Positions 7,051-60,960 of a stretch of 64,000 nt of DNA are shown piece by piece (position 1 is the first letter of the stretch; each line of letters opens with the position of its first letter). A program made the position numbers and the translations under genes. The notes beneath the pieces are model-generated. The model ran no database searches and was not told the origin of the DNA. It saw only the letters and a list, made by a program, of their open reading frames with translations. Source of the stretch: Erodium maritimum. Its lineage: Eukaryota > Streptophyta > Magnoliopsida > Geraniales > Geraniaceae. Where the stretch lies: the NCBI GenBank assembly GCA_963921825.1, contig OY997589.1:50586546-50650545 (forward strand). Reading direction: 5' to 3'.

Positions 7051-7052
7051 AA

Positions 7053-10344: not shown

Positions 10345-10495
10345 ATCTCCCACTTGCCCTAGTTCCAATCTAAACTCCTATATGTCCCCATCGACTTTAC
10401 ATGTCTAACATGTTCAGGCAGTGACACTGCCTTAGTCAACGAGTTGGCTATGTTATCATCTGTTGCAATATCGGTTATCTTCACTTCACCTCAGT

Positions 10496-13743: not shown

Positions 13744-15428
13744 ATTCTATGCGTTCAGACTTGAGGACTATCCTCAAAAATTCTGTACCAGTCCAAATAG
13801 TTTGTCCCATTTAGCTTGACCCTGTCAAGAATGGTTTTTAATGACAAACTATTAATGTTCGCTGAATTTGCCATTTGATCTACAACAGATAAAATTCAAT
13901 CAGTAAACTGAATAAATTTTATGAAGATCAAGCTTAAACACCAACAATCAATTCTAAACCTTTAGAATCTGAAACCAAGATCCTTGATTCACTCGATTAA
14001 GCTGAACTAATGCTCACCACTTAATCGAGCTATGTAGGTAGGAATCCATCCAATCACATCCAATGTGACTCCTGGCTAGGGTATGTACTTATGTACACGA
14101 CTTACCCTATCTGTTACCCTAGCTCAACCTCAGGCTAAGAATCGTAGTCGGGTCCACCAATTTTCAACTATGGCTCGTCACTATGTAGGTGCTCCGCTAA
14201 TGCGCACGACACCCACATATGTCGTCCAAACCTACTACCCCGCTTTCCCATGGATGCTCCGCTAATGCGCACGACACCCATAGGACGGGGAGGTAGTAAG
14301 GTGTTGATGATTGGGAGGTATCGGACATGACCCGTTTTTACTTGTCCGGTTGTGTTTAAAACTTTGACACATCCTAGATGCGATGAGCACATCAACTACA
14401 TTCCAAATGCAATGATGCCTCAAATTACCTCCAATGTAATTCTTCCTTCGAACCCGTCAACTACATCCAATGTAATGACGATTCTAAGGGCTCACACACA
14501 AGGATTAAAATTCCAATTTTATCTTTGCATGTGAGGTGATATGCTCGGTAAATAAAGTTAAGCATGCAATTCTAAAACACAGAATTAATCATGCATAAAC
14601 TAAACCAAGCATAAAGCGATAAATATGCACATAATAGCCCCCTAAACTAACTCCCACTAGCTTCTTGAGCTCCACCGACTCCAAGCCGATGCCAACACCC
14701 GAAAAGCCACCAAATGACCTTTTCGCCCTTTCTTCATCTTGAGTAAAATATTACAATTTAATACACGACTCGCAGGTCGGGAATAAATAAATATTACAAA
14801 CAAGTGGTTCGACGACCACACCTTGAAAGAATAATTACACGTTAACTCTAACGGCTCGCAGGCCGTGAAAAGCGATAAATAATTAAATTGAGCTCGGGGC
14901 TATTATGTACACCATGCCAACATCACATCACACATCGTGTTATCAAACAAGCATGTTATCAAACATCATGTGATTTTCCGGTTTTAATTAATAGCCAAGT
15001 TTCGAAATTTTTTGATGCTCGGTTTATCGAAACCGTTCAAAAATGAAACTTTTGAACATTTGATCTTCGAGTTCATCATGACGGTTCCAAACTCGTCATA
15101 ACTAACAAAACGGTTTAGCCTTGGCATATCAACCATCCAATGGTCATGCTTGGCCTAGCTCCGTCCAACGGAGCCCCGTTCGGTCCCGGTTTCGGCTCCC
15201 CGAGAGTCCCGCTCCCGAGACCCGAAAAATCAAATTTTTTTCAAAATTTCCAGATTTGAAATAATTTTCAAAAATTCATTTTACATGCATTAAATCCATA
15301 AACAATAATTTAAAACATGTTATCAAACAATTTAGCAAAACAACATGCCAAAAACGAAACTTTCAAGCAAAACCGAAACTTTGAACACCGTCTTGTGAAT
15401 CCCGAAGGTAGCACGGCTCTGATACCAC

Positions 15429-17116
15429 TGTTGGGTCTCGAGGTAGGGTTGGAGATGAACCAACTCGCAGCGGAAAATCAATGAAAACCAAGAGACAATT
15501 AAAACCATGAAACAACTAACAAAGAATGGATTAACAAGAGAAAAATTCAGCACTAGTTCTTACCAAAACAAGAACACCGGTTAACGAATGATTGGCTTGA
15601 GTCTCCAAGACGCCTACGTATCCACATGGGAATCAAAGCCACGTAGTTCTTCTCTTTGAGGACTCAAGAACACAAACATGGAGGTGGAAACTAGCCAAAC
15701 CCGAAATGGCCATGGAAGAGGGAGAGAAAATGTGTTTCCTATTCTTGTCTAGTGTTTGTTATGTTGAAAAAAGATGACTTAAACATAACAAAACCCATAC
15801 TTGTCCAACTAAAGGCATGGGACAAGTATGGTGTCAAGTAAGGTGTAAATAGGACAAAGTATGGCAAGACAAGATTGTGTTAGGTGGTGAATCACCAACA
15901 CCTTAATCCTTGTCTTGCTTACTTAGTACTAATTAATCAAGACTTGATTAATTAGTTCCATGGGCCTTGGTTGCATGGGCCTTTCATGGGCCTCTTGGAA
16001 CATGGCCCGTGACCATTTCCAACGAGGTCCCGTGATTCGCTCATCGCCTCCATGCCTTCCATACCGGAAATGTCCAACATTATCCGACGCGATCAATCCC
16101 AAGACTCCAAGCCTTGTCTCGATCCGTAAAGTCCCATTCACTTACGGGCACATGACCCAAAACCCAGTTTTGGTCATGTCCCAAGACAACTCCCTTTTGG
16201 CCATTCTCCATAAATGTGTCAATGAGTTTCATCCTCCGGTGTGACCCTTAGGTTTATGCATGTCAATAGATCAACGTAAAATCCCATTTTACTTGATCCT
16301 ATTTAAGTGGCAACTAACGAGACTTTAGTATTGCCTGACACTACATAACGAATCGACCCTGTCGATTCTAACCTTTCCGTCGTCCCTGTCATTATCCTTT
16401 TATCTCCGATATCCTGATTGAGATAAGGCATAGAGCCGTCATCCTTATTATTCTCAATCACCGTTCCTTGATATGTGAGATGACTGAAGATATGATACCC
16501 AGTATCATGTGCATGGCCATGCTATTCTTCCAGTCACTCTCGATCAAGCGGCCGAGAACCGATATCTTTCCCATACCTCAGTATGAGGGATAAATCCCTT
16601 AGCCGCCTTTCGTGTCACTCATGTAGCCCGTCCCCAAGCCAATCCTGGCCGTTATGGAAGCCCTGTTACGGACAACGTTAGGCTCAGGTCAAACTTAGTT
16701 GTTGACTACATAGCGATCACAAAGACTCCTTGGTCTAAGGATACATGACAAGCTACGACACTGAATATGTTCATGACTTAATCTATGGCACATATTCAGG
16801 GCGGGTCGTCCAATATCATGTCCCACATGATATCTATGATCAGACTCCGAAATCCCATTCCAATGACTAACAGAACGTAAGCCATAAAGAGCCATCTTTC
16901 ATACTAGTCGCTTCTAGTGAAGCTTTGTTGACTAGGGACCCATCGAGTGTGATCTATCTCGATCTATGGTTCTATTCGCATGGTGGGCATAGATCAGAGC
17001 ACACATCGATATATTACTCCAACACATAAGTAATATAAAGCCGCTTTAATTTTATTGCTAACGATGATATATACATTTGGACATTTAGGATTGAACTACG
17101 GGCACTAAGACTAACA
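15429..17116 (-). repeat. Copia 5' LTR (element orientation)
   Basis: Same length and termini as 8657-10344. The primer binding site lies directly outside its inner edge at 15415-15427. Confidence 0.9.
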
Positions 17117-17683
17117 TCCTTCTCTCTCTAACTTCTCTCTTCTTTTTTTCTGTTTTTTTTCTCTTTGAAACCACCTTGGCCGAACACCCCTATCACCTCT
17201 CATCTTTATTTTCCCCCCAAAACCTAACACCACCACTTGTTTGACAAGTGGCAAGGTGGGTCCCACACCTTTTGGGAAAATAACTACTAGATTTTTTCCA
17301 ATCAGATTCGCGAAAATAGGACGTTTCGGGCCCCGAACGGGCACTTTTTCCAAGAAATTACGAAACTTCACGGGCTACAAGGAAACGGCTCAACTAAGAC
17401 CGCTGCGACGACGGCTAAGCTTTTTGGATCCAAAACGGTCCTCGAATGGACCAAAACGTCGCTCGGTTGACTTTTCAAGCGAAAAGTCAACATTTCCCAA
17501 AATGACCATAAAGTTGCCCTGAGTCCGCTGGAACTCACTTTGGTCAATATCGGGGTCAACTTAAGTCCGGTATGACCCTCGGGATCAAATTTAGGTTCAA
17601 TAAAGTGTTTGCTGAATTTTTTTAAATTTTCCTGTTTTTCGCAGATTTGACTGGCGTTGACCGGGAGTGGTTATTACAAGTTG

Positions 17684-17868
17684 TCAAACAACTCAATTAC
17701 GCATTTTTTCAAATCAATACACATTACAGTGTAATGATGGCTTTTCAGTACAACCATAAAAATCTGTGAAGGGAAAACAAACACCCTAATACGTTCAGTA
17801 TACATGTAATGTGTTCGGAAAAAAGCGTACAATTAACATCCTAAACTATGTTACTTACAAGATCAACC
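17684..17868 (-). pseudogene. Island of the Ulp1-type gene between two gypsy insertions
   Basis: 185 bp of MULE sequence survives between two LTR insertions. On the minus strand it holds the last bases of one exon (17859-17868), an intron with GTAAGT donor and CACAG acceptor (17764-17858), and the start of the exon with HHYTVMCIDLKKCVIELFDN (17763-17684). This exon continues at 6025-5968. Confidence 0.8.
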
Positions 17869-18479
17869 TGTCACGCCCCAATTTCAGTAAAACCGAACTC
17901 GGATCGCGAACGTTTAAAACAATAAAACCTTTCAGACATTTTAAATAAAACACTTTAAAACCACCAATTACTTAAACAAAATAATTATTTACAGCTCAAA
18001 AGTACGTCCCACAAGCGGACAAAATATAAGTGTACGTCGCTAGACTCAAAAGTAAACCCGGACTCCCGCTCCTAGCTCTTCAAGCTTCGGAAACTCACCT
18101 AGTCCAACCTACGACCAGTACCTGTAGGAAAAGCAGCTAGGGGTGAGAGTTCGCTCACCACCACGGATAACAGACTGACTACGACATACTTAGCAGACAA
18201 TGCCGGTAACACCAACAACAACTCAACACCAGGAACTACTATCCCCAAACTCAAGTAACCCGACTGACACACACACACTACTACTTTCCTCAACCGACTC
18301 AACACTCGGACACGTAATGTAGACCCGACACAACGATTGACGACCTCCTCCAAAGATACGACAGAAAACCACACAACACCCAAGATCACAAAGGATCGCA
18401 CACCAAACAAGATCACAAAGGATCGCACGCCAGCTGCTCAGTAACCCCCTCTCTCTCGCCATTTACCGATCCCTGTCAG

Positions 18480-18670
18480 GTCAGGCGGTCTACATGTCGC
18501 GCAACTTCTCCCGATCTCAGTCGGGAGGCTAGCCCAAAACCTCTCCCCTTCCCCCGATCCCTGTCGGGAGGCTAACCACACCCGCACACACTTCTCCCGA
18601 TCCCTGTCGGAAGGCTACCCCACAACCTCTCCCCTTCCCCCGATCCCTGTCGGGAGGCTAGCCACACCTC
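18480..18670. repeat. Tandem hairpin block in the gypsy LTR
   Basis: Four units of about 40-60 bp, each with CCCGATCCCTGTCGGGAGGC or a variant, which can fold as TCCCGA...TCGGGA hairpins. The matching block is at about 24440-24620 in the partner LTR. It is absent from the related LTRs at 6026 and 50287, so it distinguishes this subfamily. Confidence 0.7.
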
Positions 18671-21096
18671 ACGCAACTTCCCCGACACAAATTCCGGTCT
18701 CCAACCTCAGGTAACCACAATCACAATCACAAGCAAAGTTCAACAAACAGCAACAACACAGGTTCAACACTCCACAAGCACTCATGGCCACCCAAGACAC
18801 CACAGTGAAACACGGGTTCAACAACCCTACGGGCACTCACGGCCACCCAAGACACACCGACAATGACTCACGGGCTCAACAACCCCACGATCACTCACGG
18901 CCTCCCAAGACACGCCAACAGTAACTCACGAGCTCAACAACCCCACGGGCACTCATGGCCTCCCAAGACACACCAACAGTAACTCACGGGCTCAACAACC
19001 CCACGGGCACTCATGGCCTCCCAAGACACGCTAACAGTAACTCACGGGCTCAACAACCCCACGGGCACTCATGGCCTCCCAAGACACACCAACAGTAACT
19101 CACGGGCTCAACAACCCCACGGGCACTCATGGCCACCCAAGACACCAACAGTAAAACACGAGCTCTCATGGCCACCCAAGACACAACAGTAAAGTACGGG
19201 CTCTCATGGCCACCCAAGACACAACAGTAAAGTACGGGCTCTCATGGCCATCCAAGACACAAACTAAACAATCAACCTCCGGGCATGGTCATATGCCTCC
19301 ATTAATTCAAATATCAACAGGCTCACAATCAACCTCCGGGCATAACCAAATGCCTCCAGTAGTTCTAATATAAACAGTACACTGCTCCAACGACACTACT
19401 AAGTGCCACATGCATTTCTATTGTTCGATACGTTCCCGTATCATACGACACCACCCGGTGTCGCATGCCTTTCTATTGTTCGATAAACTTACTTAACCCA
19501 CGACACCCAAGTGTCACATGCATTTCTACTGTTAACTTTCCCTAGTCAGGGCCGAGATCCGACTACTTTTCCCTACCTCGTATGCTTTCTCCAAAAGCGG
19601 ACTAACAAGCTCCGGCGTGATCTCGATCACTCACCTAGCTTTCTCTTTCCTCTGTCTACCGCACGATCTAAAAGAACACAATTTATATACTTTTAAGTTC
19701 GCAGACATAAACCGGAATTTAATAAACTTGACGCTCAAAAGTAACCCTGACAATGTCGATCACTCCCAAACTTCCCAATTACTCGACATTGTCGATAATG
19801 AACCCGGAAAAGCCCGATTCGCCCGACATGGCGAATCTGCCCGGGTTCTGGAAACGCCCTTCCGGGGCTCCGAAAATTCCCGTTTTCGTTTCTACGGTCT
19901 TAGAATAATTCAAGGGTTCCTATGCACTCGGCGGAATCCAATTCCAACTTCCGAGTAATTTAATTAGCGTTTCAAGTTTCTAAACCCGTCAATTACAACT
20001 TTTACAATTTAATTCCAAATTTCGATCCGGTTGTAGATTAATGATTCGGGGAACGTCCTAAACCACACGAACACGAAACCCGAACACCCGAGCACGTGGG
20101 CCCCACCCGACCAACCTTGGCCGTGGGTGGCTAGGGCTCAAATGGGCCCGGCTCACCATGGTGGTGGCCGGCCTTAGCTCCGGCCACCCACCCCATGGCC
20201 GGCCGGCCACCCTACATGGTTGCCGGAGCTCCCCCTGAGCTCCCGGTCACCTGAAAACATCCCTCTTCACTCCAAAACGTCTCCAACGATCCCCAATCCT
20301 CAATACAACCCTAAACTACTAGATTCAAACCAAACCTTAATTTTCAAACCTAACAAAATGAAAATCGGTTAGGTGCTCACCGTAGAGAACGTCGACGTGA
20401 GCTCGATTCCTTTAGCTTTGAGACGATCCAAAGGTTAGATGAACGGGAATAGTGGCAAGACTCCAACCCTCCTTCTCTTTTCTCTCTTCTTCTCTCTTCC
20501 TTCTATCTACTTTCTCTCTCCAAAAACCCCCAAAAACAGCCTTATGGCCGAACACCCCTAAGCCACTCATCTTTGTCTTGTTTCAAAAATACCTAACCCC
20601 ACCACATATTTGACATGTGTCAAGTGGGTCCCACACCTATTTATAAAGATATCCTCTAGATATTTTCCAATCAATTCGCGAAATTGGGACGTTTCGGGCC
20701 CCGAACAGGCACTTTTTTCAAGAAATTACGAAACTTCACAGGCTACAAGGAAACGGCTCAACTAAGACCTCTGCGACGACGGATAAGCTTTTTGGATCCA
20801 AAACGGTCCTCGAATGGACCAAAACGGCGCTCGGTTGACTTTTCCTGCGAAAAGTCAACATTTCCCAAATTGGTCAGAAAGTTGCCCTGAGTCCCCCGGA
20901 ACTCACTTTGGTCGATATCGGGGTCAACTTAAGTCCGGTATGACCCTCGGGGTCAATCTTAGGTTTAATTAAGTGTCTGCTTAAAATTTTTAAATTTTCC
21001 TGTTTTTCGCAGATTTGACTGGCGTTGACCGGGAGCGGTTCTTACAATCTACCCCCCTTAAGGGAATTTCGTCTGTGAAATTTGAGAAAACGCACC

Positions 21097-22859
21097 TCAG
21101 GAGTCGAAAAGATCTGGGTACTTCGCCCGCCAATCCATTCCTAAGATCACGTCAAAGGTCATCATTTCCAGCACGGGAAGGTCATGAGGGCAAGGACAGT
21201 CTGCGACTCTAATTTCGCAGGCACGACAGACCCTAGTCAACAACACATCACCCCCAAATAGGGTGTCCAGGCACAGGGGTGGACTCAACGGCTCTAAACT
21301 CATCCCCTACCTCTCAGCACAACTCAACGAAACAAACTAGTGCGACACCCCGGTATCAAACAAGAATAATGCCCATAATTGATACAATAAACACGTACCC
21401 TGAAAGGTCTCGCGGTAGGTAGTGGATCCTGGGGCCCGGGAGTCGGTAATTGCGTACACTCTTCCCTCTGACGCCTGCTGCCTCTGATCCGGCGCACTGA
21501 CTGCTGGGTACCCAGATCCCTACTGTTGTCTCGTGGACGGCTGTGAGAACCTTGACTGCTGACTCTGACGCGGGCGACCTCTGGGCGACTGCACGGTATA
21601 CGACTTTTGCGGCCGCTGCGCTGACGTTGCCCCCAACGGCTCACGGCACCATGCAATAGTGTGTCCCACCCGGCCGCACCGGAAAAAGCTGGTCTCGTCG
21701 GCTCTCGACTACGTGCCCTGGCCTGCCCGGCTGGTCGCTGGTAGCGCCGCGGGCCCTAATCCCATCGGACACTCTCGATGAAAATGGCCTCGCTGCCCGC
21801 ATGTAAAACGTGTCGGCCCCCTCTCTGAGGCGACTGGCCCCACTGACGCCACAGACCCCCTCTGTCTCGCTCCGCCCTGCTGAGCTTGTGGCCTAAAGAA
21901 CCCCGTGGTCATCTGTCTCCTCAGATCTCGGAACTCGGACGGCTCCGCAACACTGGTCGGTCGCTGTCGAACCTCGCGGGTCCTGGCCGCATCCCAGATA
22001 CCCTGCTCCACTTTCGCTGCAGTGTCCACGAGCTCTGAGTACTCCCGCAACCTCAAGGCGAGGAATCGATCCCGAATAACTGGCCTCAGTCCCCCCGCGA
22101 ACCGCAGGCAACAGTTCTGCTCTGTCGCCACCATTTCTGGCGCGAATCTGGTCACGGCCGTGAATCTGGCCTCGTATTCCTCCACTGACATCCCCTCCTG
22201 CTGCAGTTCCAGGAACTGCCGATGTCGGTCCACCCGAGCCGACTCGGGTAAATACTGCGCCAGAAAGACCGTCTGGAAGACATCGTAGTCGTTTCCGACT
22301 CTGTCCCTCACACGCCCCCACCAGTGGTAGGCGTTGTCCCTCAGCTGATGAGCTGCAAAGGACACTCTTCTGCGGCCATCCTCGATACCTGAGGTGTCCA
22401 GGTCCCGCGTGACCTGCTCTAGCCATCTCTCGGCTAGGTCTGGGTTTGGCTCCCTGACAAATGTGGGTATGCCGAGCTTCAGGAAGTCCAGCATTGTCCG
22501 AGCCGTATGGTCTTCGGCCTGGACGGGCCTCGCTGGGACCGCTGCTGCCTCCGGAGCTGGCGATGCCGACTCTCTACTGCGATGATCGCCACCAAACTCT
22601 ACATTGTCCTAGTCAGCTCGTCCAGGGCGGTCGTAGTGGGAGGGTCTACGACCGGCGGGACGCTGGGCGTGACCGTAGATGGTCCCGCGTCGCTCCTCCT
22701 GTCTTCTCCGACAGGAGTACCCTGGGCCTCCGCATACTCAGCGGGCTCGATGGTGGGCACCCGTCCCCAACTGCCTCGCGCGGGCGCATGTCCCCGTGTC
22801 ACGGCTGATCGTCCTCGTCTGCGCCGAGCCATGTGTCGGTATCCTCGGCATGGATACAC
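21097..22859 (-). pseudogene. Gypsy gag and aspartic-protease region
   Basis: On the minus strand gag starts near 22859 (Arg-rich start RHMARRRRGRS), followed by the retrotransposon gag domain (AYHWWGRVRDRVG, QYLPESARVDRHRQFLELQQ), a zinc knuckle (CGQRGHFHRECP), and a protease-like segment ending DVILGMDW (about 21110). The stretch is GC-rich compared with its surroundings. Polymerase domains do not follow: the purine tract and LTR come directly after. Broken. Confidence 0.75.
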
Positions 22860-25800
22860 GCAAACGTTTAGTTTGCGAATTTATATAACGACGACATGCT
22901 CCAAATACTAGCGTTCATACGGTCTACGTCTATCTCTAGCGTACTCGTTACTAAACGTCACACCGCTCACGCCATTAATACTTTAATTATAATAATACGT
23001 AAAGAGACCTCAAATAGAACGCACAAACGTGCACCATGTCACGCAACAACAACACGAAAACTGCGTAAACAAGACGGCGAAAAAGACAGGGGTCACCGAC
23101 CCGTGACAGACCCCGTCACGGTTGGGGTCACGGTGCCGTGACGAAGGCTCTAAAATTGCCAAAACGCGCTGCTCCGTCACGGATCCGTGACACTCGCGCA
23201 GGCCAGTTTTCCAAAAATGTTTCAAACTCGACCCTTACTCCTTTTTCACCTCAAAAGAAACCTTGAATGACACACACGCTCGACCCACAAATTACCAACT
23301 CACGTCCAACAATTCTAGACCAAACACAAGTCTCCCAACCTCAATCATAAGCCGACACGGCCAAACAACAACACAACAACACGCCCACCGGGCCAACCAA
23401 AGTCGAAATACGACCACAGGGCCAATCAAGTTTAAAACACGCCCACAAGGCCAACAAATTTTAAAACTTTCTCCTTTTCATTTTAAAACCTCATTTCTTG
23501 ACATCACGTAGTTACAACCCGGTTCAGGCGTCCCAGAACTACATTGTACCCATTGATGTCAACACCGTCACGTTCGACTACAGGAGCGCTCCTGAGTCGA
23601 GTCGCGACAGCTCAAAAATGTTTCACGCGGCAACACACAATCAGTATGCCAGCAACAAAATATTGCACATACACACAAACACAAACAAGACTCAAGACAA
23701 ACGGGTCTACACACGGTTTCCGACCTGCGTACCGAACGCACGACGGGACTTTACTGACTCGACTCTCCCCACCTAATTGACGTACAGTTCGAGGTGTGAA
23801 ACCTCAAGCTCTGATACCAAGCTGTCACGCCCCAATTTCAGTAAAACCGAACTCGGAACGCGAACGTTTAAAACAATAAAACCTTTCAGACATTTTAAAT
23901 AAAACACTTTAAAACCACCAATTACTTAAACAAAATAATTATTTACAAATCAAAAGTATGTCCCACAAGCGGAAAAAATATAAGTGTATGTCGCTAGACT
24001 CAAAACTAAACCCGGACTCCCGTTCCTAGCTCTTCAAGCTTCGGAAGCTCACCTAGTCCAACCTGCGACTAGTACCTGTAGGAAAAGCAGTTAGGGGTGA
24101 GCATTTGCTCACCACCACGGATAACAGACTGACTACGACATACTTAGCAGACAATGTCGGTAACACAACAACAACTCAACACCGGGGACTACTATCCCCA
24201 AACTCAAGTAACCCGACTGACACACACACACTGTTACTTTCCTCAACCGACTCAACACTTGGACACGTAATGTAGACCCGACACAACGATTGACAACCGC
24301 CTCCAAAGACACGACAGACAACCATGCAACACCCAAGATCACAAAGGATCGCACACCAAACAAGATCACAAAGGATCGCACGCCAGCTGCTCAGTAACCC
24401 CCTCTCTCTCGCCCTTTACTGATCCCTGTCAGGTCAGGCGGTCGACCTGTCGCGCAACTTCTCCCGATCTCAGTCGGGAGGCTAGCCCACAACCTCTCCC
24501 CTTCCCCCGATCCCTGTCGGGAGGCTAGCCACACCCGCGCACACTTCTCCCAATCCCTGTCGGGAGGCTAGCCCACAACCTCTCCCCTTCCCCCGATCCC
24601 TGTCGGGAGGCTAGCCACACCTCACGCAACTTCCCCGAAACAAAGTCGGGTCTCCAACCTCAGGTAACCACAATCACAATCACAAGCAAAGTTCAACAAA
24701 CAGCAACAACACAGGTTCAACACTCCACAAGCACTCATGGTCACCCAAGACACCACAGTGAAACACGGGTTCAACAACCCTACCAGCACTCACGGCCACC
24801 CAAGACACATCGACAATGACTCACGGGCTCAACAACCCCACGGGCACTCACGGCCTCCCAAGACACGCCAACAGTAACTCACGGGCTCAACAACCCCATG
24901 CGCACTCATGGCCTCCCAAGACACACCAACAGTAACTCACGGGCTCAACAACCCTACGGGCACTCATGGCCTCCCAAGACACACCAACAGTAACTCACGG
25001 GCGCAATAACCCCACGGGCACTCATGGCCTCCCAAGACACACCAACAGTAAAACACGGGCTCTCATGGACACCCAAGACACAACAGTAAAGTACGGGCTC
25101 TCATGGCCACCCAAGACACAGCACTAAAGTACGGGCTCTCATGGCCACCCAAGACACAAACTAAACAATCAACCTCCGGGCATGGTCATATGCCTCCAGT
25201 AATTCTAATATCAACAGGCTCACAATCAACCTCTGGGCATAACCAAATGCCTCCAGTAGTTCTAATATTAACAGTACACTGCTCCTACGACACTACTAAG
25301 TGACACATGCATTTCTATTGTTCGATACGTTCCCGTATCATATGACACCACCTGGTGTCGCCTGCCTTTCTATTGTTCGATAAACTTACTTAACCCACGA
25401 CACCCAAGTGTCACATGCATTTCTACTGTTAACTTTCCCTAATCAGGGCCGAGATCCGGCTACTTTTCCCTACCTAGTATGCTTTCTCCAAAAGCGCACT
25501 AACAAGCTCCGGCGTGATCTCGATCACTCGCCTAGCTTTCCCTTTCCTCTATCTGCAGCACGATCTAAAAGAACACAATTTATATACTTTTAAGTTCGCA
25601 GACATAAACCGGAATTTAATAAACTTGACGCCCAAAAGTAACCCTGACAATGTCGATCACTCCCAAACCTCCCAATTACTCGACATTGTCGATAATGGAC
25701 CCGGAAAAGCCCGATTCGCCCGACATGGCGAATCTGCCCGGGTTTTGGAAACGCCCTTTCGGGGCTCCGAAAATTCCCGTTTTCGTTTCTACGGTCTTAG

Positions 25801-26806
25801 AATAATTCAAGGGTTCCTATGCACTCGACGGAATCCAATTCCGACTTCCGAGTAATTCAATTAGCGTTTCAAGTTTCTAAACTCATCAATTACAACTTTT
25901 ACAATTTAATTCCAAATTTCGATCCGGTTGTAGATTAATGATTCGGGGAACGTCCTAAACCACACGAACACGAACACCCGAGCACGTGGGCCCCACCCAG
26001 CCAACCTTGGTCGTGGGTGGCTAGGGCTCAAATGGTCCCGGCTCACCATGGTGGTGGCCGGCCCTAGCTCCGGCCAACCACCCCATGGCCGGCCGGCCAC
26101 CCTACATGGTGGTCAGAGCTCCCCCCGAGCTTCCGGTCACCGGAAAACGTCCCTCTTCACTCCAAAACGTCTCCAACGATCCCCAATCCTCAATACAACC
26201 CTAAACTACTAGATTCAAACCAAACCCTAATTTTCAAACCTAACAAAATGAAAATCGGTTAGGTGCTCAACGTAGAGAACGTCGACGTGAGCTCGATTCC
26301 TTTAGCTTTGAGACGATCCAAAGGTTAGATGAACGGGAATAGTGGCAAGACTCCAACCCTCCTTCTCTTTGACATGTGTCAAGTGGGTCCCACACCTTGT
26401 TGGAAAGACATCCTCTAGATATTTTCCAATCAGATTCGCGAAAATCGGACGTTTCGGGCCCCGAACGGTCACTTTTTCCAAGAAATTATGAAATTTCACG
26501 AGCTACAAGGAAACGGCTCAACTAAGACCGCTGCGATGACGGATAAGCTTTTTGGATCCAAAACGGTCCTCGAATGGACCAAAACGTCGCTCGGTTGACT
26601 TTTCAAGCGAAAAGTCAACATTTCCCAAATTGGTCAGAAAGTTGCCCTGAGTCCCCCGGAACTCACTTTGGTCGATATCGGGGTCAACTTAAGTCGGGAA
26701 TGACCCTCGGGGTCAATCTTAGGTTTAATTAAGTGTCTGCTTAAAATTTTTAAATTTTCCTGTTTTTCGCAGATTTGACTAGTGTTGACCGGGAGCGGTT
26801 CTTACA

Positions 26807-29800
26807 CAATCGATGTCAATGGCACCGTTAACACCTTCAATTCATCCTTGAACTGTTCTTCAAACCCAGTGTCATTGTTATACATATCGTACGATACCTA
26901 GTATATCAATAAATGTAAAGTAAATAAAGTATAGCAATACCTTGCTAGTATAAAACCCATAAAATAATCATACGATAAATGTAGTCTTACACTAGCTGGT
27001 GATGATAGAAACAACCGACACGGCGATGTGCTGCTCCTCAACTCCTCCATATGGTTGAGGTAGTTGGACCACGCGTCAACCACTTGGCTCATAACCCACA
27101 TTCTGTCCATCAATGTGCGCATCCCCTCCCTTGTTACCTTAAAAGGAGAGCATTTGTAAACGAATTCCCTGTAAATATGAAAAAGAGCGTGAGATGTGTT
27201 GCATGTGCAAACCTTGTAACAAGATATAAATGTAAATGTAAATCAAGCTACTCACATTTTACGGCCAGCGACAGAATACATCCATCGTGTCAGCTGATGC
27301 TCGTCGTCATCCAAATTGCTCCGAACATCCGTTTTCCTGTCCACATATGGAGAACAGTACACAGCAACTGGTGCTATCGCACGAACATATGGGACGACCT
27401 TAGGGGTGCATACAATTGCGGACATCGGGTCAAACGATGGTTCAGCACGGCTCATTTTCATGCGAACATCAAAACCTTTTGCGCATACGGGGGAGTCTGA
27501 CTCATCTGAGCTTGTATCCGTGTCAACGGGAATTGGTTCAGGGTATTCACGTGCAATGTCAGCAGCAACATCGATTGGGTCAAAGTCGTCAAACAAGGTC
27601 TTTGCAATTGAATCACGGAGTCTACTCGTGTTGGGAGAAACTTTATCTGCTTGTGGTGGGAATGGTCCAAAAGGTGCTGCTGGTGATGTACTCATCTGGG
27701 CCGCTGGTGAGGTATCAAATTGTGACAATAAACGGAACGATGGGGGTGAAATAGGTTGTGCAGGGTTTGAACTGTGATCACATTCACCTTTAACATTACG
27801 TCCATGGGTACCAAATAACCCATCAATCGTATCCCAACCACCTGGTAGATCAAACCACGGATCCTGCGTTGGTAGTGCATCCTCGGGTTGTGTAGCGGGT
27901 AAATCATCTGGGTGTGCATCCGGAAAGGCGCGCTGGCACATAGCTGCAACACATTTGAACCATTCGGTACCAGAGTGTTTTGTGAACCCTTCCCGCATCA
28001 ACTCGGACATTTCAGTATTTCCTTCCTTAATCTTGGTGACAGCAGCACACCATCTGTTCGCAAACATTTGTACCATATACATATGTGATAATAAAATGGT
28101 TAGCTGAGTAATTATGTATGTGGTAATAATCCATTATTACGGCCATATTAACGTGCGTAATATGTAAAATATAAACAAAATGTGTATTTGCAGATGATGA
28201 TGTCTGTAACGTAAAATGTAAAATGTAAATAAACAGCATGTAAAATGTAAAATCAAATAATATATATAATTATATCATATAAACAGCATCATAATTTAAT
28301 CACCCATATATGGTAGTATTACCACCTGGCTATCGTCTAGCTCGGCTTCTTCAGTGTGTTTGTCTGTACTGCTTCCATCTTCTGGGCATGGACTATGGTA
28401 GCTGGTAGGAGATTCAGTTGGATCGATGGGAGCTGGAGGACTAGCTGTGTGTGGGGCCGGAGGAGATTGGGGATTTTCCACGGGGTGATGTGGCAAATTA
28501 GGTTCATCGGCCGGGCGCAACAGAGGATCGACCAAAATGTGACCTTTGCCAAAAAGGTCAAGTGATATCTCTTCCTTCTGCCTTTCACTAACTGATGTAG
28601 TGTCCCATCCAATCAGTGACGGCCATGCACGGGGGACACGTCTCACGCCAACCTCAACACGATCAAGGTAGAATAACTGTAAAATGTAAATACATGTAAA
28701 TATAATTCATGTGAACTTCATCCACGAACAAAACAAAGTTATAATCGGTAAAATCAAAGCATACCAGCAAAAAGGTTATTGGCCCAACAAAAAATCTGGA
28801 CTCAGGGCTCTGGGTATGCCAAGTCTTCCTAGAATCGGCGAGTTTGTTAACTACGGTTTGGCACCAGTTGAACTCCCGTATACGAGTCACATCAGCAATA
28901 GAGTTAAAGCAAGTCTGGTTGGCAAGATTGTCGGTCCGATGCTCTATCATCATGGTTACAAATAACACCATGAAATTCCTCTTGAAATTATCCCTGTATT
29001 CCCCGGTAGATATTATGTGGTCAGCGATAATAGACGTAGTTAGATGGTCACGGTCGTCTTCGTCAAATTGAGACCTCTAGTTCTCTAGATCAGGTGCCAC
29101 TGTAGCCCGTACGCATCACACGTAACCTCCCTCCCGCCAATCGGTATGCCGAGGGTGTCGTGCACATCACGCTCTGTTATGCGTAACTTCCCATTGTTCA
29201 TCCTGAGTGACATACTGCCATAATCGAAATTATCAACCAAAAAGTATGCTAACGTACTTGGTATACGCCTGATATTCAAATGCAGCACATGTTGGAAACC
29301 AATCTCCTCAACTGCTTTCCTTTGGTTGGGGTTTAATGAGCTGATAACATCAATCAACTTCTTGGGGGACGATCTAATACGTAGCCAAGGTAAATCCTTG
29401 CGCTTCTTTGATACCAACTTCACCTCAGCCGTCTTCCCAAACTTGTAGTGTTTACGTCTACTTTCCTTAACGCATTCAGGCTTCCTTTTCCTAGATGATT
29501 CTCCCTTAGTTGGTACACTAGATCTGAACCTCCTGACGGGGGGTCTCTGTTGCTTGTCGGACCTAGAGGTGGGGGCAGGCTTCGAATCGGGAGATTTCCA
29601 GATATCGTTGCCATGCTTCTGATCGCGCTTGCTAACGTATAATCTTTGTAGTTCAGCGAGTGGCACATCATAATCCTCGCTCTCATAAGATTCATCGCTC
29701 TCAGAAGATTCAATGTTGATGTGATCCTGATTGGGAGCGTCCTCAAAATCTGAATCATCTGAATATGGACCACACCAAACTAATTAATTCTAAACCGTAA

Positions 29801-30569: not shown

Positions 30570-31098
30570 ACTATAATAATCTGCAAAAAACCCCAAATCA
30601 ACAACCAGTCCACATATATATTACATGCAATATAAGCACACCGAGAGCACACGAAAATGGTTAATAACCGTATAAACCAATTAACTGTATTGGTTAAAAA
30701 CACTGAACTGAAGCACTTAGATCTTCAGCTGCAAAAACTCGTCTTCTGTAAACCCTAGAAATCCAACCGATACTGAATGTAACTACATATCAAGTAGAGA
30801 TATTTACTTACCCGATTATCGTTGCACGACACCGCGTATTTGGAAAATCAAAATCAAAATCTTCAATCGAGCGCGAATCAAGCACGGAGAGTAATCGTCG
30901 CGAAATCCGAGGGGCGCGTTGCTGTGGAATTTACTTGGTTGCCCTTCAGAACTGTCTGAGTTACATTACGAATCAAGCACGCGCGCGAGTAATTACGATC
31001 CGTGCCACTGATGTGTAATGTAATCGTGGCTGTTGATTGTTAAGATCCTAAGGCTGAGAATAATCCGCACGTTTGTACAGAATGGGGTGTTTGTACCT
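30570..31098. other. Right terminal region of the MULE
   Basis: Holds the presumed promoter side of the Ulp1-type gene and the element end. Read on the minus strand from 31098 the end shows CAGGTACAAAC, TGTACAAAC about 20 bases in, and TTAGGATC about 50 bases in. This matches the end module of the (TA)n-flanked elements to its right. A (TA)-rich tract (31106-31127) follows. Confidence 0.55.
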
Positions 31099-31409
31099 GA
31101 AAAAAAATATATTTATATATATATATAGGAGAGCAATCAGGTGCGAACCATGAGTTACGGTGCGAACATGCGAACTCAACCAGATTGCGCCATGTGTCGC
31201 GCTCGGAAAATGCCCCCCTTTTTTTTATAATCAAGTTTATTAATTCGATTTTTCCCGTTTCGCTTCAACTCCGATTTCATTTTTTCCTGCGCCAATATTC
31301 TTATTTTTTCAAGAGCTTTCTAACAAGTAGTGGATTGCATATATTTTGATGTGTTTTGGAATAAGTGTGTGGATGTGTGACTATAAGTGCGAAAAAGTGT
31401 GATGTGTTT

Positions 31410-31600
31410 TGCAAATTTAGTGTATATGGTTTGCGGATTTAGTGTATATGTTTTGCGGATTTAGTGTATATGGTTTGCGAATTTAGTGTGTTTTGCAAAT
31501 TTAGTGTATATGGTTTGCGGATTTAGTGTATATGGTTTGCGGATTTAGTGTATATGGTTTGCGAATTTAGTGTATATGGTTTGTGAATTTAGTGTTATTT
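31410..31600 (+). repeat. Subterminal tandem repeats, left array
   Basis: About eight copies of a roughly 22-bp unit, TTTGCGGATTTAGTGTATATGG and variants (some with GAATTT for GGATTT, some shortened). The same unit occurs in opposite orientation at 31947-32105. Confidence 0.8.
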
Positions 31601-31663
31601 ATAGTGTGTCCATATATATATGTTATATGTGTGTTGCTCAAAATTGTATCTTTATTGATTCAG

Positions 31664-31932
31664 TGCTCTCAATGCTGTTGCATCTCCAAATGTCAAAGTG
31701 CTTGTAGTTGGCAACCCCTGTAACACCAAGTCAGTTACTTAAATCATCATATTAATTCATCTTATTAATTTTCTAATACCATATATAAATATATATACTA
31801 TATTATGTTGATTTGTAATATCTTCATCTTCTTGATGTTCAGTGCATTTGATTTGTTTGAAAAATGCTCCCAACATACCAGCAAAGAACTTCCATGCCTT
31901 GACTCGATTAGATGAGAATAGAGCAAAATGTC
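31664..31932 (+). pseudogene. Captured fragment of a chloroplast NADP-malate dehydrogenase gene (two exons and an intron)
   Basis: Exon piece 31664-31729 translates to ALNAVASPNVKVLVVGNPCN and is followed by a GT...AG intron (31730-31842). The second exon piece 31843-31932 translates, after one extra T near 31847, to [15 protein letters not shown] and then [13 protein letters not shown]. This is the NAD(P)-binding and active-site-side region of plant NADP-dependent malate dehydrogenase (ALNAVAS...[18 protein letters not shown]...[12 protein letters not shown] in that family). That enzyme reduces oxaloacetate to malate in the chloroplast stroma and is thioredoxin-regulated. Only about 50 codons are present, with neither start nor end and with a frameshift, so no enzyme can be made. 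The retained intron shows that genomic DNA, not mRNA, was captured. Confidence 0.85.
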
Positions 31933-31946
31933 CCTATTCAGTAAAT

Positions 31947-32105
31947 TCGCAAACCATATACACTAAATTCGCAAACCATATACACTAAATCCGCAAACCA
32001 TATACACTAAATTTGCAAAACACACTAAATCCGCAAACCATATACACTAAATCTGTACACCATATACACTTAATACGCAAACCATATACACTAAATTTGC
32101 AAAAC
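31947..32105 (-). repeat. Subterminal tandem repeats, right array (inverted)
   Basis: About seven copies of CCATATACACTAAATCCGCA and variants, the reverse complement of the left array at 31410-31600. Confidence 0.8.
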
Positions 32106-32395
32106 ACATCACACTTTTTCGCACTCATATTCACACATCCACACACGTGTTCAAACACACATCAAAATATATGCAATCCACTACTTGTTAGAAAGCTCTT
32201 GAAAAAATAAGAATATTGGCGCAAAAAAAAATTAAATCGGAGTTGAAACGAAGCGGGAAAAATTAAATTAATAAACTTGGTGGGGAAAAAAATGAGCATT
32301 TCTAAGCGCGACACGTGTCATGTTGTTGTTGAGTTCGCAGGTTCGCATTTTAAGAGGGGTTCGCACCTGATTGCTCCCCTATATATATATATATA

Positions 32396-32840
32396 GGGTT
32401 GGTATCAGGTACAAACCCCCTCTTATTGTGCAAACTACGAACCCACGAGAGCCATAGGATCCCCCAAAAGTAATGTCAGCAGAGCGCACCAGATGCTGAC
32501 ACATGGACAATAAATATATAAAACAACGCACCTTATTGTGCAAACTACGAACTCACCAGGTGCTGACACGTGGCGCGCACAATGCTGATAGTTTGCGCAG
32601 CACGGTGCTAATAGTTTAGCACAAATGCAAACTATCAGCACTGTGTGCGCCACGTGTCAGCACCTGGTGAGTTCGTAGTTTGCACAATAAGGTGCGTTGT
32701 TTTATATATTTATTGTCCATGTGCAGTTTGCGCGCAAACTATTTGCACCATGCTGCGCAAACTATCAGCACTGTGCACGCCACGTGTCAGCACATGATGA
32801 GTTCGTAGTTTGCACAATAAGGGTGGTTTTTACTGGATAG

Positions 32841-32882
<42 letters not shown>

Positions 32883-33209
32883 CTATCCAGTAAAAACCAC
32901 CCTTATTGTGCAAACTACGAACTCACCAGGTGCTGACACGTGGCACGTTTAGTGCTGAAAGTTTGCGCAGCACGGTGCTAATAGTTTGGGACTATTAGCA
33001 CTGTGCGCCCAAACTATTAGCACTCTGCGCGCCACGTGTCAGCGCCTGGTGAGTTCGTAGTTTGCATAATAAGGTGCGGTGTTTTATATATATATTGTCC
33101 ACGTGTCAACATCTGGTGCGCTCTACTGACATCACTTTGGGGGGATCCTGTGGCTCTCATGGGTTCGTAGCTTGCACAATAAGGGGGGGTTTGTACCTGA
33201 TACCAATCC
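32396..33209. mobile_element. Nested (TA)n-flanked palindromic MITE complex
   Basis: Outer ends are GGGTTGGTATCAGGTACAAACC (left) and GGTTTGTACCTGATACCAATCC (right). Inverted similarity runs about 170 bp inward, past ACGAACCCACGAGAGCCATAGG and TGTCAGCAG motifs. Inside, a further inverted pair starts at a TATATAAAACAACGCACC / GTGCGTTGTTTTATATA boundary (about 32512-32710). A head-to-head pair meets at (TA)15 (32847-32876). It looks like repeated insertion of the same family into (TA)n inside earlier copies. Confidence 0.7.
32780..32940. repeat. Large palindrome around (TA)15
   Basis: GGGTGGTTTTTACTGGATAGC and its exact reverse complement flank a 30-base TA tract (32847-32876). Arm similarity continues outward through GCACAATAAG and GAGTTCGTAGTTTGC for at least 55 bases. 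It could extrude as a cruciform. Confidence 0.8.
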
Positions 33210-33227
33210 TATATATATATATATATA

Positions 33228-33589
33228 GGGTAGCTATCCAGTAAAAACCATCCTTATTATGCAAACTACGAACCAATCTAAGCCACAGGATGCGGTCAAA
33301 GTGACGTCAGCAGAGCGCGCGCGATGCTGACACGTGGCCGCTTCGCGCGCGCCTCTGCCTGCGCGCGTGAGCGTGTTGACCACGCGCGCGCACAGTGCTA
33401 ATAGTTTGGGCGCACAGTGCTAATAGTTTAGCACAGTGTCAAACTATTAGCACTGTGCGCCCAAACTATTAGCACTATGCGTGCTACGTGTCAGCACTGT
33501 GCGCGCGCACCAGCAGCGCGCGCGCCGACGTGTCAGCACCTGGTGAGTTCGTAGTTTGCACAATAAGGGGTGGTTTGTACCTGATACCA

Positions 33590-33593
<4 letters not shown>
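33228..33593. mobile_element. (TA)n-flanked MITE
   Basis: Starts GGGTAGCTATCCAGTAAAAACC and ends GGTTTGTACCTGATACCAACCC, with (TA)n on each side (33210-33227 and 33594-33621). The centre is a GC-rich palindrome built from GTGCTAATAGTTTG units and (CG)-rich words. Confidence 0.75.
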
Positions 33594-33621
<28 letters not shown>

Positions 33622-34075
33622 AGTATCAAATACAAATCATTCTTTATTGTGCAAACTACGAACAGATATGAGCCAAAGAATGCGCATGTTGACGTCATCG
33701 CAGCGCACAAGATGTTGACACGTGGGCACTCAGTTGCTGATGCGTGCACCAAGTAACGGTACCTTCCCTAACATGTGATGATACCTACATACAGAGTGTT
33801 GACACCCACATACATAGTGTTGATGCTATGCAAAGTGCTGGTATCTTACCTAACACGGTACGGGTACCTTACCTTACACGGTATTGGTACCATATAGAGT
33901 GCTGGTACCATGTGTACTGCGCGCGTGGTCAACATGCGCTGCACGCGGTCAAAGGTGTGCGCGGAAAGGCCACGTGTTAGTATCACGCGTGCTTTGATGA
34001 CATCATCTTGACCGCATCTTGTGGCTCTCGTGCGTCCGTAGTTTGCACGAAAAGAGTGGTTTGTATTGGATACCC
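33622..34075. mobile_element. (TA)n-flanked MITE, more diverged
   Basis: Left end AGTATCAAATACAAATC, right end GGTTTGTATTGGATACCC. It has the shared inner motif TGTGCAAACTACGAAC at its left and GTCCGTAGTTTGCACG at its right. The TA tract is on the left only. The right flank (CGCGTATTTATTAG) shows a short or decayed one. Confidence 0.65.
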
Positions 34076-43042: not shown

Positions 43043-46000
43043 TTTTTTTAGCGAAAGACGCAATTTTATTACACCTCAGATTGAATGATACATTGTAGTG
43101 CGTCAGGCACAGGGCCTGACCATTGAAGAACATACATAGAACGAGATTCTCTTACTAACTAGTGAGAAGCTCTATTCGCAGTTCTTTTTACAAATTGAAG
43201 GGTAGTCCCCTCTTGTTGAGAAAGAAGCCTATGAATATCCCGAATAATTGTCCCGATTGGAGATGTCGGGGGTCGTCATGTAAAATCATATTCAGGAGAA
43301 CTTGGGCGTCAGACCGGATAATAAAATACTCCCCCAAGCTAGGTGCGTTTTTCAGAGCTGCTGCCAGGGCACAAGCCTCGACCATGAGCAAAGACCAGCA
43401 TCCCGGGAGTAATCCATTTACTGCAAGTTAGACTGTTCCATAGGTATCCCGAGCAATGACACCCCATGCCGACTAATGCGTATCTGGAAAGACCGATCTA
43501 TCCACATTAATGACAATAGTACTCGGGGGCGGGTGTGTCCACTTAGCCGGCCATAACGGGGTGTGGGACCTAAGTGTGGGAGATGCATTATTTGCCTCCC
43601 GCCAGGCCTTAAGAAATGTCGCCGCCGAGGAGACCGCTCGTATTGCAGCCGGGGATGGGATACTCCCCTCCATTTGAGGTCATTTTGAGCCTTCTATATC
43701 TCCCATAGGAGTGATAAGATATCAGCCACCTTGTCTCGGGACCTCCAGGCAACTATCCCCTCCCACCAATGCGCAAAGTCTTCGTTAAAACCATAGGGGA
43801 TCGGGTCTCCAAAATATGACTAGCACGTTTTCGCAAACCCGCACTCTAAGAACAAATGGCCCACTATCTCAGGAGCTCTCCTGCATATATCACATGTGGC
43901 AAGGATCGGAACAAACTGTCAGTTAAGATTGGAAGCCACCTGTAATGTATCAGTTAGGCACCTCAACAGGAATATCAGTAGCCAAGGCGGGGCTGGGATA
44001 CACCATAGGGACGGCCATGTGACCGATGTCGTGTTCTGACGTGTCTTGTGGCGCTCCCCTGCCAGCATCATATAGCCAGATTTGGTAGTATATTGCCTTG
44101 TACGATATGAAGCCCAATACGACGAGTCTTTAGGCCGGAGTTCAGATAGTGGAACCTATAGTGTATGATCCTTTTCCTCAACCGAGAATATCTGATTCAG
44201 TAGTGGCATGTCCTAACATAACCTACCTGGAACCATAAGCCCCACAGCCCGAGCTCCCACTAAAGATTGCTGATCCGAGGTAATCTTCGGGTTAGGCCCA
44301 AGAAGCCACGGGGTTCCCTTTATACAAGTGTCCCGACCATTCCCTATGGCTATTCGAAGCCCTCCTCGGATTAAAGACTGAGCGGATAGGATACTGGCCC
44401 ATACAAAGCTCTGATTAGCGATAGATACAGCCTCTAGAAGCTTTCCATCCCAAGAGCGGACCCGCTTGATGATACAGTCCCCTAAGTATGCCATTTCCGC
44501 ATTCCTATTCCTTCCGATCATATTAGGGACCCTGAGGTACATAGAGGATGTCGATGTCTTACCAATGGCCAAGTTCTAACAGCATGTTTGTTTAAATTCT
44601 TCCGATGTATTCTTACTGAACATGACTGATGACTTGGCGAGGTTGAGGACTTGTCCAGAAAGCTGACCAAATAGTCCTAAGATATGCTCCGGTGTGACCC
44701 TACAGAAAATGTAACAATCGTCACCAAAGAACATATGCGATATTTCTAGGGCGCCCCGTGCGACGCGAACACCTCGCAGCCGACCCTCCTCCTGAGCCTG
44801 GCACAGTAGGAGTGATAACCCTTCCATACAAAGAAAGAACAGATATGGAGAGAGCGGGTCTCCTTTTCTTAATCCCCGAGATTGTGCAAATCGTGGAGAA
44901 TCCGGACGAGACCGTGTAGTGAACAGATTTCATGTAGCACACCACCAACTCCATCCATGCTGGTGAGAAGCCCAGCCTATACAAAGGAGGTAACCCCATT
45001 CACCCCGATCATAAGCCTTACTCATGTCGAGCTTGAGGGCCATCAAGCCGAGAGACCCCTACCGTTTCTACCGTAGAAAATGAATTACCTCAAAGGCGAT
45101 AAGAATGTTGTCTTGAATACAACGGTCTGGGATAAATGCTTCCTGCATGTCAGAGATAACAGTATGAAGGAGCGGTCGTAACCGATTTGCCCGGACCTTG
45201 GACAAAATTCGGAATATCACATTGCATAGAGCTATCGGGCGAAAATCAGTTACCACATCCGGGTCAGGTTTCTTTAGGATTAAGACTATGGGCTATCATT
45301 CAGAGTCTGTTCAAAGCCCCCAGAGGCCAAGACCTCCTATATAAAATGAACAACCTCCTCGGACACGATCGGCCAGTAATGTTGTTAAAAGTGTGGATTC
45401 AGACCATCCGGATATGGGGACTTGTCTGGACCCATTTGAAACACTGCCGCCCTGACTTCCATATCCGAGTATGGAGCTAAAAGAGATTGGTTATGCACTA
45501 GAGTAATACACTAGGGGAGGATAATGGGGAAATCATGTAGATCCGGTAAGCTAGACTGTAACAGAGTCTCTAAGTAATCAACAATCAACTCACACATACC
45601 CGTATCCCAGGTGACCAACTCCCCTGTTTCCATTTTTGAGAGATGACATTGCATTGATCCGACGACGATATGAGAAAGCCGCTTGAAGGAATTTAGTGTT
45701 ACGATCCCCTTCGTCCAACCAGTGATGCTTCGCCCACTGCCGCCAAAAGGCCTCTTGTTCTCTCAATGCCCGTTCATATTGGATCTGTATAGCTTCCCGA
45801 AGGTGTACCCCCGCTCTATCAGTACGACTATTGAGTTCCGCAATTCTCCGCTGACACCACTTAATATGATTAATATTCCAGTGGAAATGCTGATGACCCC
45901 AATCCTCAAGTGTTTTCCCCATTGTCTGAATTACCTCTGCCATCAGTTTCGTCGAACGCTTGTCCCATGATTCCTGAATTAGGCGGCCACAATTAGGGTC

Positions 46001-47281
46001 ACGGACCCATTGATATTGGAAATGGAACTTTTGAGGGCCATGGTGAGATACCTTATATGCCAAGGATAAGAGAACTGATCAATTGTCAGAGGTTGTCACA
46101 CCCGTGTTACAGAAGGCCAAGTTTGGGAGGGTGGAATATAGCGTGTCTGATACCAGTGCCCTATCCAAACGAGATTGGACCAGTTCTTCATGTCTACGCC
46201 CTGAATACCAAGTATACTGATGTCTTGTCATTGGGACGTCAACCAGGCGTAGATCATCCACCATGGAGCAGAAATCATCCATGAGGCTCAAGGGGTAGGA
46301 CCGTCCTCTTATAGTTTCCACTGGATCGAGAATACCATTGAAATCCCCTATCAATATCCAGTTCGGTCGTGTTGGAGTATAGAGATTAATATCATCTCCC
46401 AAGTACGCTGGCAAAGGTCTCGACAAGGCTCCCCATAAATCCCCGTGAGACGCAAATCTCTATAGACTGGGGCCGAAACGTCAGTATTAATGTACCTCGG
46501 AGACGACGTTCTAAGCATCACCTCAATTCCTGAAACCCACAGTAAAGCCAGACCTCTCTGATTCGGAGTATCCTGAGTCCTCCTGGAATAGGGAACACAA
46601 AGGAAGCCCTGAAAACCCAACGATTAGGATAGCAAAGCACAATTCTGTTCAGTCATCATTGTTTTCGATACAAAGAGAAGACGAGGCCTATGGTCAGCAA
46701 GCAGTTGTCGTAGTTGCTACTTATGCAACCCACTACCCATTCCCCGACAATTCCACGCCAGAACCCGAAGGTCTGGAGGATCCCGTGGCGGTGGCAGAAT
46801 CCCCAAAGGGCTAGGAATTGGAGCCGAAGGTTGAGGCAATGGAGATTGGGGTAAAATTTGAACCCCCCCCCCCCCAAGACCTTGCGAATTAATCTCGTTC
46901 AATCCCAGACCAGACATCAATGGGGGCAGGGGCACAGATGACCGAGATAAGGGGCCGGAACCTCGGTCCCAATTTCGCTGCAAAGACGTAATTGCCGACT
47001 GAATTAGCGGGGAAGACGATCGTCGTCGTTCTCGGCGTCACGATGAGGAGGAAGCCCCCACTAAGCCTTGCGATCCAATCTCATTCAACCTAGGTCCAAA
47101 TGAGACCAGAGACGAAATTGACGATGAAGGCGACGATAGGGGTGGGGGCAACGACGGAGGATGATTCGGGCATGAGAAGGGTATGAAAGTGGGGGAAATC
47201 TAGCCCGTGAAAGATCCACGACACTCGGACCAATGGGACGCCATCACATCATAGTTTGGGGTCTCTGTTCAAAAATATTCA
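43043..47281 (-). mobile_element. L1-type LINE, 4.24 kb, 5'-truncated, degenerate
   Basis: Target duplication GTATCTTATAGC (43031-43042) and GTATCGTATAGC (47282-47293), one mismatch. An A-run (T-run on plus, 43043-43049) lies at the 3' end. On the minus strand: the C-terminal end of ORF1 (proline and serine rich, about 47250-46990), endonuclease, reverse transcriptase, a zinc-binding region and RNase H. This is the layout of plant L1 elements with an RNase H. The 5' end stops inside ORF1. Confidence 0.85.
43188..46983 (-). pseudogene. LINE ORF2: endonuclease, reverse transcriptase, RNase H
   Basis: In order on the minus strand: endonuclease start LRVLAWNCRGMGS (about 46770-46730), WILIGDFNGILDP (about 46360-46320) and QSRLDRALVSD (about 46160); the linker with HWLDEGDRNTKFL (about 45710); reverse transcriptase with DFRPIALCNVIFRILSKV (45250-45200), AFIPDRCIQDNIL and the active-site motif FGDDCYIF (about 44720), a variant of F/YADD; a Cys/His region (about 43950-43800); and RNase H with IVINVDRSVFPDT and SDAQVLLNM (43540-43280). 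The blocks lie in different frames and several stops separate them, so ORF2 is dead. Confidence 0.85.
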
Positions 47282-49643: not shown

Positions 49644-49681
49644 CCAAGATCAATAACAAAATCACAGCATATATATATATA

Positions 49682-60951: not shown

Positions 60952-60960
60952 TATTTATAT
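60952..60960 (+). promoter_or_regulatory. TATA box of CYP707A
   Basis: TATTTATAT, 57 bp before the ATG at 61017, giving an expected leader of about 30 bases. Confidence 0.6.

Follow-up and report, generated by a model that had tools for sequence, protein, structure and literature searches.

The window analysed here is a 64,000-nucleotide stretch of the Erodium maritimum genome (C2:50586546-50650545), which contains most of a FAR1-type Mutator-like element (MULE) and a row of five small elements, E1-E5. The right 31.1 kb of the MULE, an element with paired ends, lies on the forward strand at 1-31098. Its left terminus is found in the preceding 10 kb, at C2:50585231 (1315 bases ahead of window base 1), where (CA)n and a 25-base AT tract are followed by GGGAAGGTTTCAGGTACAAACCCC. 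The total span is ~32.4 kb, including two nested long terminal repeat (LTR) retrotransposons. A MULE transposase is encoded between these ends. It comprises a FAR1 DNA-binding domain piece (1-270, forward strand; PF03101, E-value: 3.8e-08), the MULE catalytic domain (801-1103, forward strand; PF10551, E-value: 2.3e-23) and a C-terminal part (1087-2397, forward strand), of which the first open reading frame (ORF; 1087-2001) served as the query for relatives. The right terminal module (CAGGTACAAAC ... TGTACAAAC ... TGCGGATTA) occupies 31040-31098 on the reverse strand. An earlier, sequence-only reading of the window had taken this segment for a diverged, inverted copy of a module shared with the small elements, and it is indeed the right terminus of the FAR1 element: its alignment with the left end of the same copy exceeds all 400 shuffles, which identifies the two as related inverted termini.

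A second gene, called the partner gene below, is convergent to the transposase on the reverse strand. Its N-terminal pieces are located at 28663-29783 and its middle exons at 26988-28133. A further exon (HHYTVMCID...ELFDN, 17680-17781) is split by an LTR retrotransposon and resumes at 6024-5968, followed by an exon with KDDCGIYAMWHMESY at 5872-5672 (together 5672-6024). The two LTR-retrotransposon inserts, with limits set by eye, have the same end letters (TGTCACG...TTACA). One (6025-17678) is flanked by the 5-bp duplication AGTTG and the other (17869-26806) by CAACC/CAATC, with one mismatch. Both are ordinary nested retrotransposons, unlike the TA-stacked elements described below, and one of them interrupts the partner gene inside an exon.

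The partner protein has a visible H...D...DCG-like motif, which we take to resemble that of Ulp1-type cysteine proteases. The label "Ulp1" given to this gene in the sequence-only reading can be kept as the name of a motif only: neither the joined exons of the catalytic region nor the separate pieces matched Peptidase_C48 at E <= 10, and a PDB search of the protein gave no match. A protein search with the partner gene returned no Ulp1 match and one distant match (E-value: 3.7e-16, 23% identity over 40% of the query), to a protein that carries another Pfam domain. In a genome search in which 129 of 718 candidates were scored, yielding 129 matches, a convergent partner gene was found no more than 45 kb from 20 of the 26 close transposase matches (at least 57% identity); 20 of these 26 copies thus have a second gene that runs opposite to the transposase, as in the KAONASHI type of MULE. 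Among random positions, a convergent partner gene lies within 45 kb at a mean of 0.3 per 60.

The five small elements (31128-34075) adjoin the right end of the MULE across TA tracts. Pure TA tracts of 16-30 bases lie between successive elements, none of which is nested within another. The boundary between the MULE and E1 is an A/T-rich tract ending in (TA)7 (31099-31127). E1 (31128-32379; 1.25 kb, with ends GGAGAGCAATCAGGTGCGAACC and GGGGAGCAATCAGGTGCGAACC) is followed by (TA)8 (32380-32395), E2 (32396-32846, forward), (TA)15 (32847-32876), E3 (32877-33209, reverse), (TA)9 (33210-33227), E4 (33228-33593, reverse), (TA)14 (33594-33621) and E5 (33622-34075), a diverged small element. Copies of E4 with ~93% identity are found beside two other FAR1 elements, either directly adjacent or with a single element in between. 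E2, E3 and E4 each pair an A end (GGTTGGTATCAGGTACAAACC type) with a B end (GGTAGCTATCCAGTAAAAACC type), the A end being on the left in E2 and on the right in E3 and E4. The same rule is followed by all ten complete A/B elements (E2-E4 and seven from other fetched loci). The ends of E1 are related to, yet distinct from, the A and B ends. Positions 31128, 33228 and 33622, previously listed as variants of the module, are genuine element ends. The accompanying statement that every complete copy abuts TA is borne out by the tracts that part all five elements and breaks down at the right side of E5, which has no tract. Toward the middle of E1, a ~22-bp repeat, TTTGCGGATTTAGTGTATATGG, forms arrays in inverted orientation at 31403-31595 and 31939-32108. 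A further TA-flanked element end (GGATAGTTTTCAGGTACAAAACC) is located at 49669-50004, with inner similarity to E1 at 49950-50004.

The core observation of a shared terminal module is real and genome-wide. In the 763-Mb genome over which all genome-wide counts were taken, box 1 (ATCAGGTACAAAC) has 2,922 copies compared with 29 for the reversed control, and the B-end core (ATCCAGTAAAAACC) has 1,714 compared with 10. Within the window, box 1 is exact at 32404 (forward), 33189 (reverse) and 33573 (reverse). The inverted site formerly placed at 33189 is therefore correct, that at 33571 is moved to 33573, and 32396 is the element edge, the core beginning at 32404. With up to three mismatches, the 13-mer box 1 is not enriched in the window (29 matches versus 22.0 expected; 11 of 100 shuffles reach 29). 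Box 2/3 (TGTGCAAACTACGAAC), at the same tolerance, is found 11 times versus 0.61 expected, a count reached in none of 100 shuffles. It begins 11 nt past the first box, rather than the ~20 bases inward that had been reported. The third piece (GAGCCATAGGATC) is exact at 32449 only, has one mismatch at 33144 and is missing from the 33573 end; it is therefore not universal among complete copies, as had been supposed. TATATA is located 2-14 nt outside box 1 in 43 of the first 51 listed sites (two site lists compared by eye), which indicates that most copies are microsatellite-flanked. For the reverse strand, whose listing shows each site once, there are 1,313 matches to the module plus TATATA for 1,450 module copies (control: 0). 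The forward-strand count (4,884) is inflated through overlapping starts.

Relatives of the MULE are found throughout the genome. The transposase search produced 131 matches (130 of 759 candidates scored), of which 26 have 57-100% identity, 104 have 44-49% identity and one is a second piece. The left terminus was seen in the fetched stretch for seven of the first 12 close copies, and DNA searches added termini at C8:41.8 Mb and C4:67.75 Mb and a truncated one at C4:17.45 Mb. The left-end search gave 12 long matches, 11 of which start at query base 1-2, and the right-end search gave right-end or internal matches at 20 loci as well as short ones. All 12 long left ends pair with a correctly oriented right end (spans of 10,587-32,421 bases), such that the genome contains at least 12 end-paired copies of the FAR1 element; the shortest are on C8 (10,587) and C6 (10,760). 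Both FAR1 ends carry CAGGTAC(A/C)(A/C)A and spaced inner boxes.

When TA repeats are required within 24 nt outside the terminus, ten of 11 intact left termini qualify, the exception being a (TA)n-then-(GA)n tract. As background, the same rule is satisfied outside the cluster by 396 of 30,940 and 592 of 29,740 positions of the window. Of 15 further right ends that were fetched, 13 retain the outer box, in three cases with one changed base, and all 13 abut TA; the two that have lost it lie beside TA as well. TA likewise adjoins the right end in the window, C8 and C6 copies. The proposal that FAR1-bearing copies elsewhere share the terminal core and TA flanks is therefore largely upheld, at both ends. 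Because the flanks are TA repeats, a target-site duplication of 8-11 bp cannot be read there.

Across the TA tract from FAR1 ends there are often A/B-, D- (ATCAGGTACAAACTTGTATC...) or E1-type ends and, once, another FAR1-type end, so that FAR1 elements are joined through TA tracts to at least three other small families. Judged by eye, a small-element end lies opposite the FAR1 right end at eight of 15 right ends. The C8 copy is flanked by A/B elements on both sides, and the C6 copy has a D-type element on the left and an E1-type followed by an E4-type element on the right. A copy at C2:63.58 Mb has TA tracts at both ends and no recognisable neighbour on either side. Non-nested, end-to-end joining through a TA tract, a feature of the SaTar elements discussed below, is found at E1-E5, at the C8 and C6 copies and at other loci.

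On terminal similarity, matches to both FAR1 ends are found in a ~0.65-kb family of small elements different from E2-E4, and this family is the closest candidate non-autonomous partner of the FAR1 element among those found. Searching with the FAR1 left end also gave 12 short matches, confined to its first ~45 bases, all of which abut TA. For eight of these 12, both ends were read (lengths of 652-671 bp). On the left they agree with the FAR1 left end at 36-40 of 40-44 positions; five of the eight right ends best match the FAR1 right end (29-40 of 33-46 positions) and three are closer to the left type. Three of the 12 were returned by both end searches, with ends 645-659 bp apart.

E2-E4 match the FAR1 right end over ~35 nt and on one side only. 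The A end of E4 is identical to the C8 FAR1 right end at 29/35 positions (score 38, against a maximum of 28 in 500 shuffles) and that of E2 at 28/35 (score 33, against a maximum of 25). The A end of E4 also matches the right end of the 0.65-kb family (38/48), as does the right end of E1 (32/39), and the ends of E1 match those of the derivative. B ends are at or near chance against the FAR1 termini, with 17 to 405 of 500 shuffles reaching their scores. The tie between the small elements and an autonomous partner is weaker than drawn in the sequence-only reading: for E2-E4 it is seen at the A end and is not recovered at the B end. The expectation that similarity extends beyond the outer box in every family fails on the 38 bases inside box 1, where D ends do no better than chance and the similarity of A, B and E1 ends is mostly weak (strongest: E1 right versus FAR1 left, 22/38, p=0.0005). 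The signal therefore comes mostly from the outer box and inner TRCRAAC-like repeats. Because matches beyond the outer box are partial, we place the E1-E4 termini, on sequence comparison, in the putative lineage of the FAR1 termini and make no claim that this particular transposase moves them.

Two other FAR1 lineages were encountered. A family of ~47% identity to the query is represented by 104 listed loci (e.g., L036-L039), many with ORFs of >400 amino acids. Four compared copies are ~95-96% alike over most of their length, and the family has apparently undergone a recent, large expansion. A convergent partner gene is located within 45 kb of at least eight of the first 34 of these 104 transposase matches; this is a lower bound because the partner search scored 129 of 718 candidates. 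In 13.8-kb stretches of two copies no Ulp1-like gene was found, a result that does not extend to the family given the eight or more of 34 above. At their left homology boundary these two copies have neither the module nor a TA tract of four or more repeats. These observations, made at the left boundary, are suggestive evidence only against the ~47% family as the partner. A second FAR1 subfamily, F2 (L063, L067 and L068; 59-68% identity), is TA-flanked and has another end, GGTCTCTACTGCGAACTCAAATTGGGCTGCGAAC. F2 ends are weakly similar to E1, and against one B end their score is reached in 0 of 400 shuffles.

Taken together, the module is probably the terminus of a FAR1-type Mutator-like lineage that inserts into TA microsatellites, and we hold this reading, array model included, with good confidence. 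The proposed model is as follows. The shortest coding members are ~10.7 kb, with the FAR1/MULE transposase read from the left end and the convergent partner gene from the right. The transposase would bind the terminal boxes and integrate into a TA tract, such that the target duplication would be hidden within the tract. Each insertion would leave TA on both sides and thereby create fresh landing sites, from which non-nested arrays could grow. End-to-end stacking follows because both the large and the small transposons sit in TATATA runs. Less certainly, the same transposase or its close kin may move E1-E5 in trans; from stacking in TA tracts it can be concluded that these elements have a target in common, but not that they have a transposase in common.

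Several observations weigh against this model. The window copy is itself broken because the two LTR retrotransposons split its partner gene. No target-site duplication was read in non-TA DNA, and the account rests on anatomy, no mobilisation having been observed. In the D family the match spans just 12-22 columns. The B ends match the right end of the 0.65-kb family weakly (E2: score 25, reached in 0/500 shuffles; E4: 77/500). At eight of the 12 loci examined for distant transposase copies no terminus was found, and the terminus at L071 is truncated. Finally, the ends of F2 differ. That subfamily, being TA-flanked and FAR1-type with different ends, also lends weight to the idea that E2-E4 and the D-type elements were moved by another, unsampled MULE of the broad lineage, the outer box reflecting old ancestry. 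This alternative has somewhat less than an even chance of being correct. It is consistent with the divergence of the A/B and D ends past the outer box, with TA stacking as an expression of target preference and with the assignment of matches at both FAR1 ends to the separate 0.65-kb family. It accounts less well for the A end, whose 29/35 columns of identity with the FAR1 right end lie beyond all 500 shuffles, and no closer autonomous partner was found in the upstream stretches of 24 transposase loci, many of which gave no end.

Alternatively, the arrays could have been built by recombination between TA microsatellites, for example through circular intermediates, rather than by transposase targeting. 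Such a process has been proposed for SaTar elements (PMC5907723), and it fits both the FAR1 copy in the mixed (TA)n(GA)n tract and the left end of the window element in (CA)n(AT)n. We regard it as unlikely, given the sharp boundaries at the terminal box and the C2:63.58 Mb copy, which has TA at both ends outside any recognisable array, although neither point is decisive. A chance or low-complexity origin of the module, which could draw on the lack of enrichment of the three-mismatch 13-mer in the window, is refuted by the genome-wide counts (2,922 versus 29) and has next to no probability in view of the paired ends, exact boundaries and TA flanks. A more elaborate version of the FAR1 model is that one transposase lineage serves a guild of TA-stacking elements via the shared outer box, that the ~47% sister lineage lacks the TA target and that the partner gene may be an anti-silencing factor which, like VANC in Arabidopsis, recognises the repeated boxes. 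This version is improbable as a whole. For the partner gene itself, an anti-silencing role like that of VANC/KIU (PMC13317346) is a guess. Were the guild version true, comparison of the TA-targeting and ~47% lineages would locate the determinant of target choice.

With the FAR1 model preferred, the system adds a new, well-supported case to a known type of TA-stacking array, with an unusually complete cast. The SaTar/AgS-MULEs of guayule, rice, sorghum and citrus (Valdes Franco et al. 2018, PMC5907723) likewise include non-autonomous MULEs that occupy (TA)n and follow one another end to end rather than nesting, as well as autonomous MULEs with similar ends. AgS-MULE1 is 5.3 kb with 400-bp terminal inverted repeats (TIRs), in contrast to the ~10.7-kb shortest coding element, two convergent genes and short, unequal ends in Erodium; the main text of that paper contains neither ulp1 nor far1 as a word. 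AutoMuTAnT, the autonomous relative of MuTAnT in Medicago truncatula (Stawujak et al. 2015, PMC4486113), differs in being a single-ORF element of 4,873 bp with the end mask GGGGTTTGCTAGAACA and 218 copies. No second gene is reported in the parts of that paper covered here, unlike in the two-gene element described above. The Ac-mMITEs of pineapple (Lin et al. 2021, PMC8449440) are abundant, clustered, (TA)n-associated miniature inverted-repeat transposable elements (MITEs) and, as here, include two families with common distal end parts. The pineapple authors report having found no autonomous element, whereas Erodium has a coding element whose ends match. ULP1-bearing MULEs (KAONASHI/KIU) are described from Arabidopsis, melon, rice and grapevine (PMC13317346, PMC2528002). 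Like the element here, these KI-MULEs have a second gene opposite to the transposase; they are without TIRs, and the Erodium partner gene differs in having no Peptidase_C48 match. Micron of rice and TAFT of maize are further small elements that prefer TA tracts, likened to the present ones by published description alone. No paper joining MULE, ULP1, microsatellite and MITE was found in the open-access collection searched.

The two-gene FAR1 element supplies a candidate enzyme source for TA-stacking arrays, a component reported missing in pineapple and provided by a small one-gene element in Medicago. Because end-paired two-gene elements, a derivative with matching ends and stacked small families coexist in one genome, both trans-mobilisation and TA targeting are directly testable. 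The ~47% lineage, which perhaps lacks TA targeting, offers a possible natural comparison.

The window has further features. An LTR element with 1,688-bp ends that are 99.9% identical (8657-17116) is nested in the insert at 6025-17678 and contains ORFs at 10.9-13.7 kb that read as copia-like. Tandem repeats of protein-like character (TGSHGHPRHNSN and similar) lie within the LTR inserts at 6944-7414 and 24.6-25.2 kb. By eye, open frames at 44213-46459 resemble a remnant of an endonuclease/reverse transcriptase of the long interspersed nuclear element (LINE) type, and those at 60912-62037 resemble a cytochrome P450 gene that is CYP707A-like.

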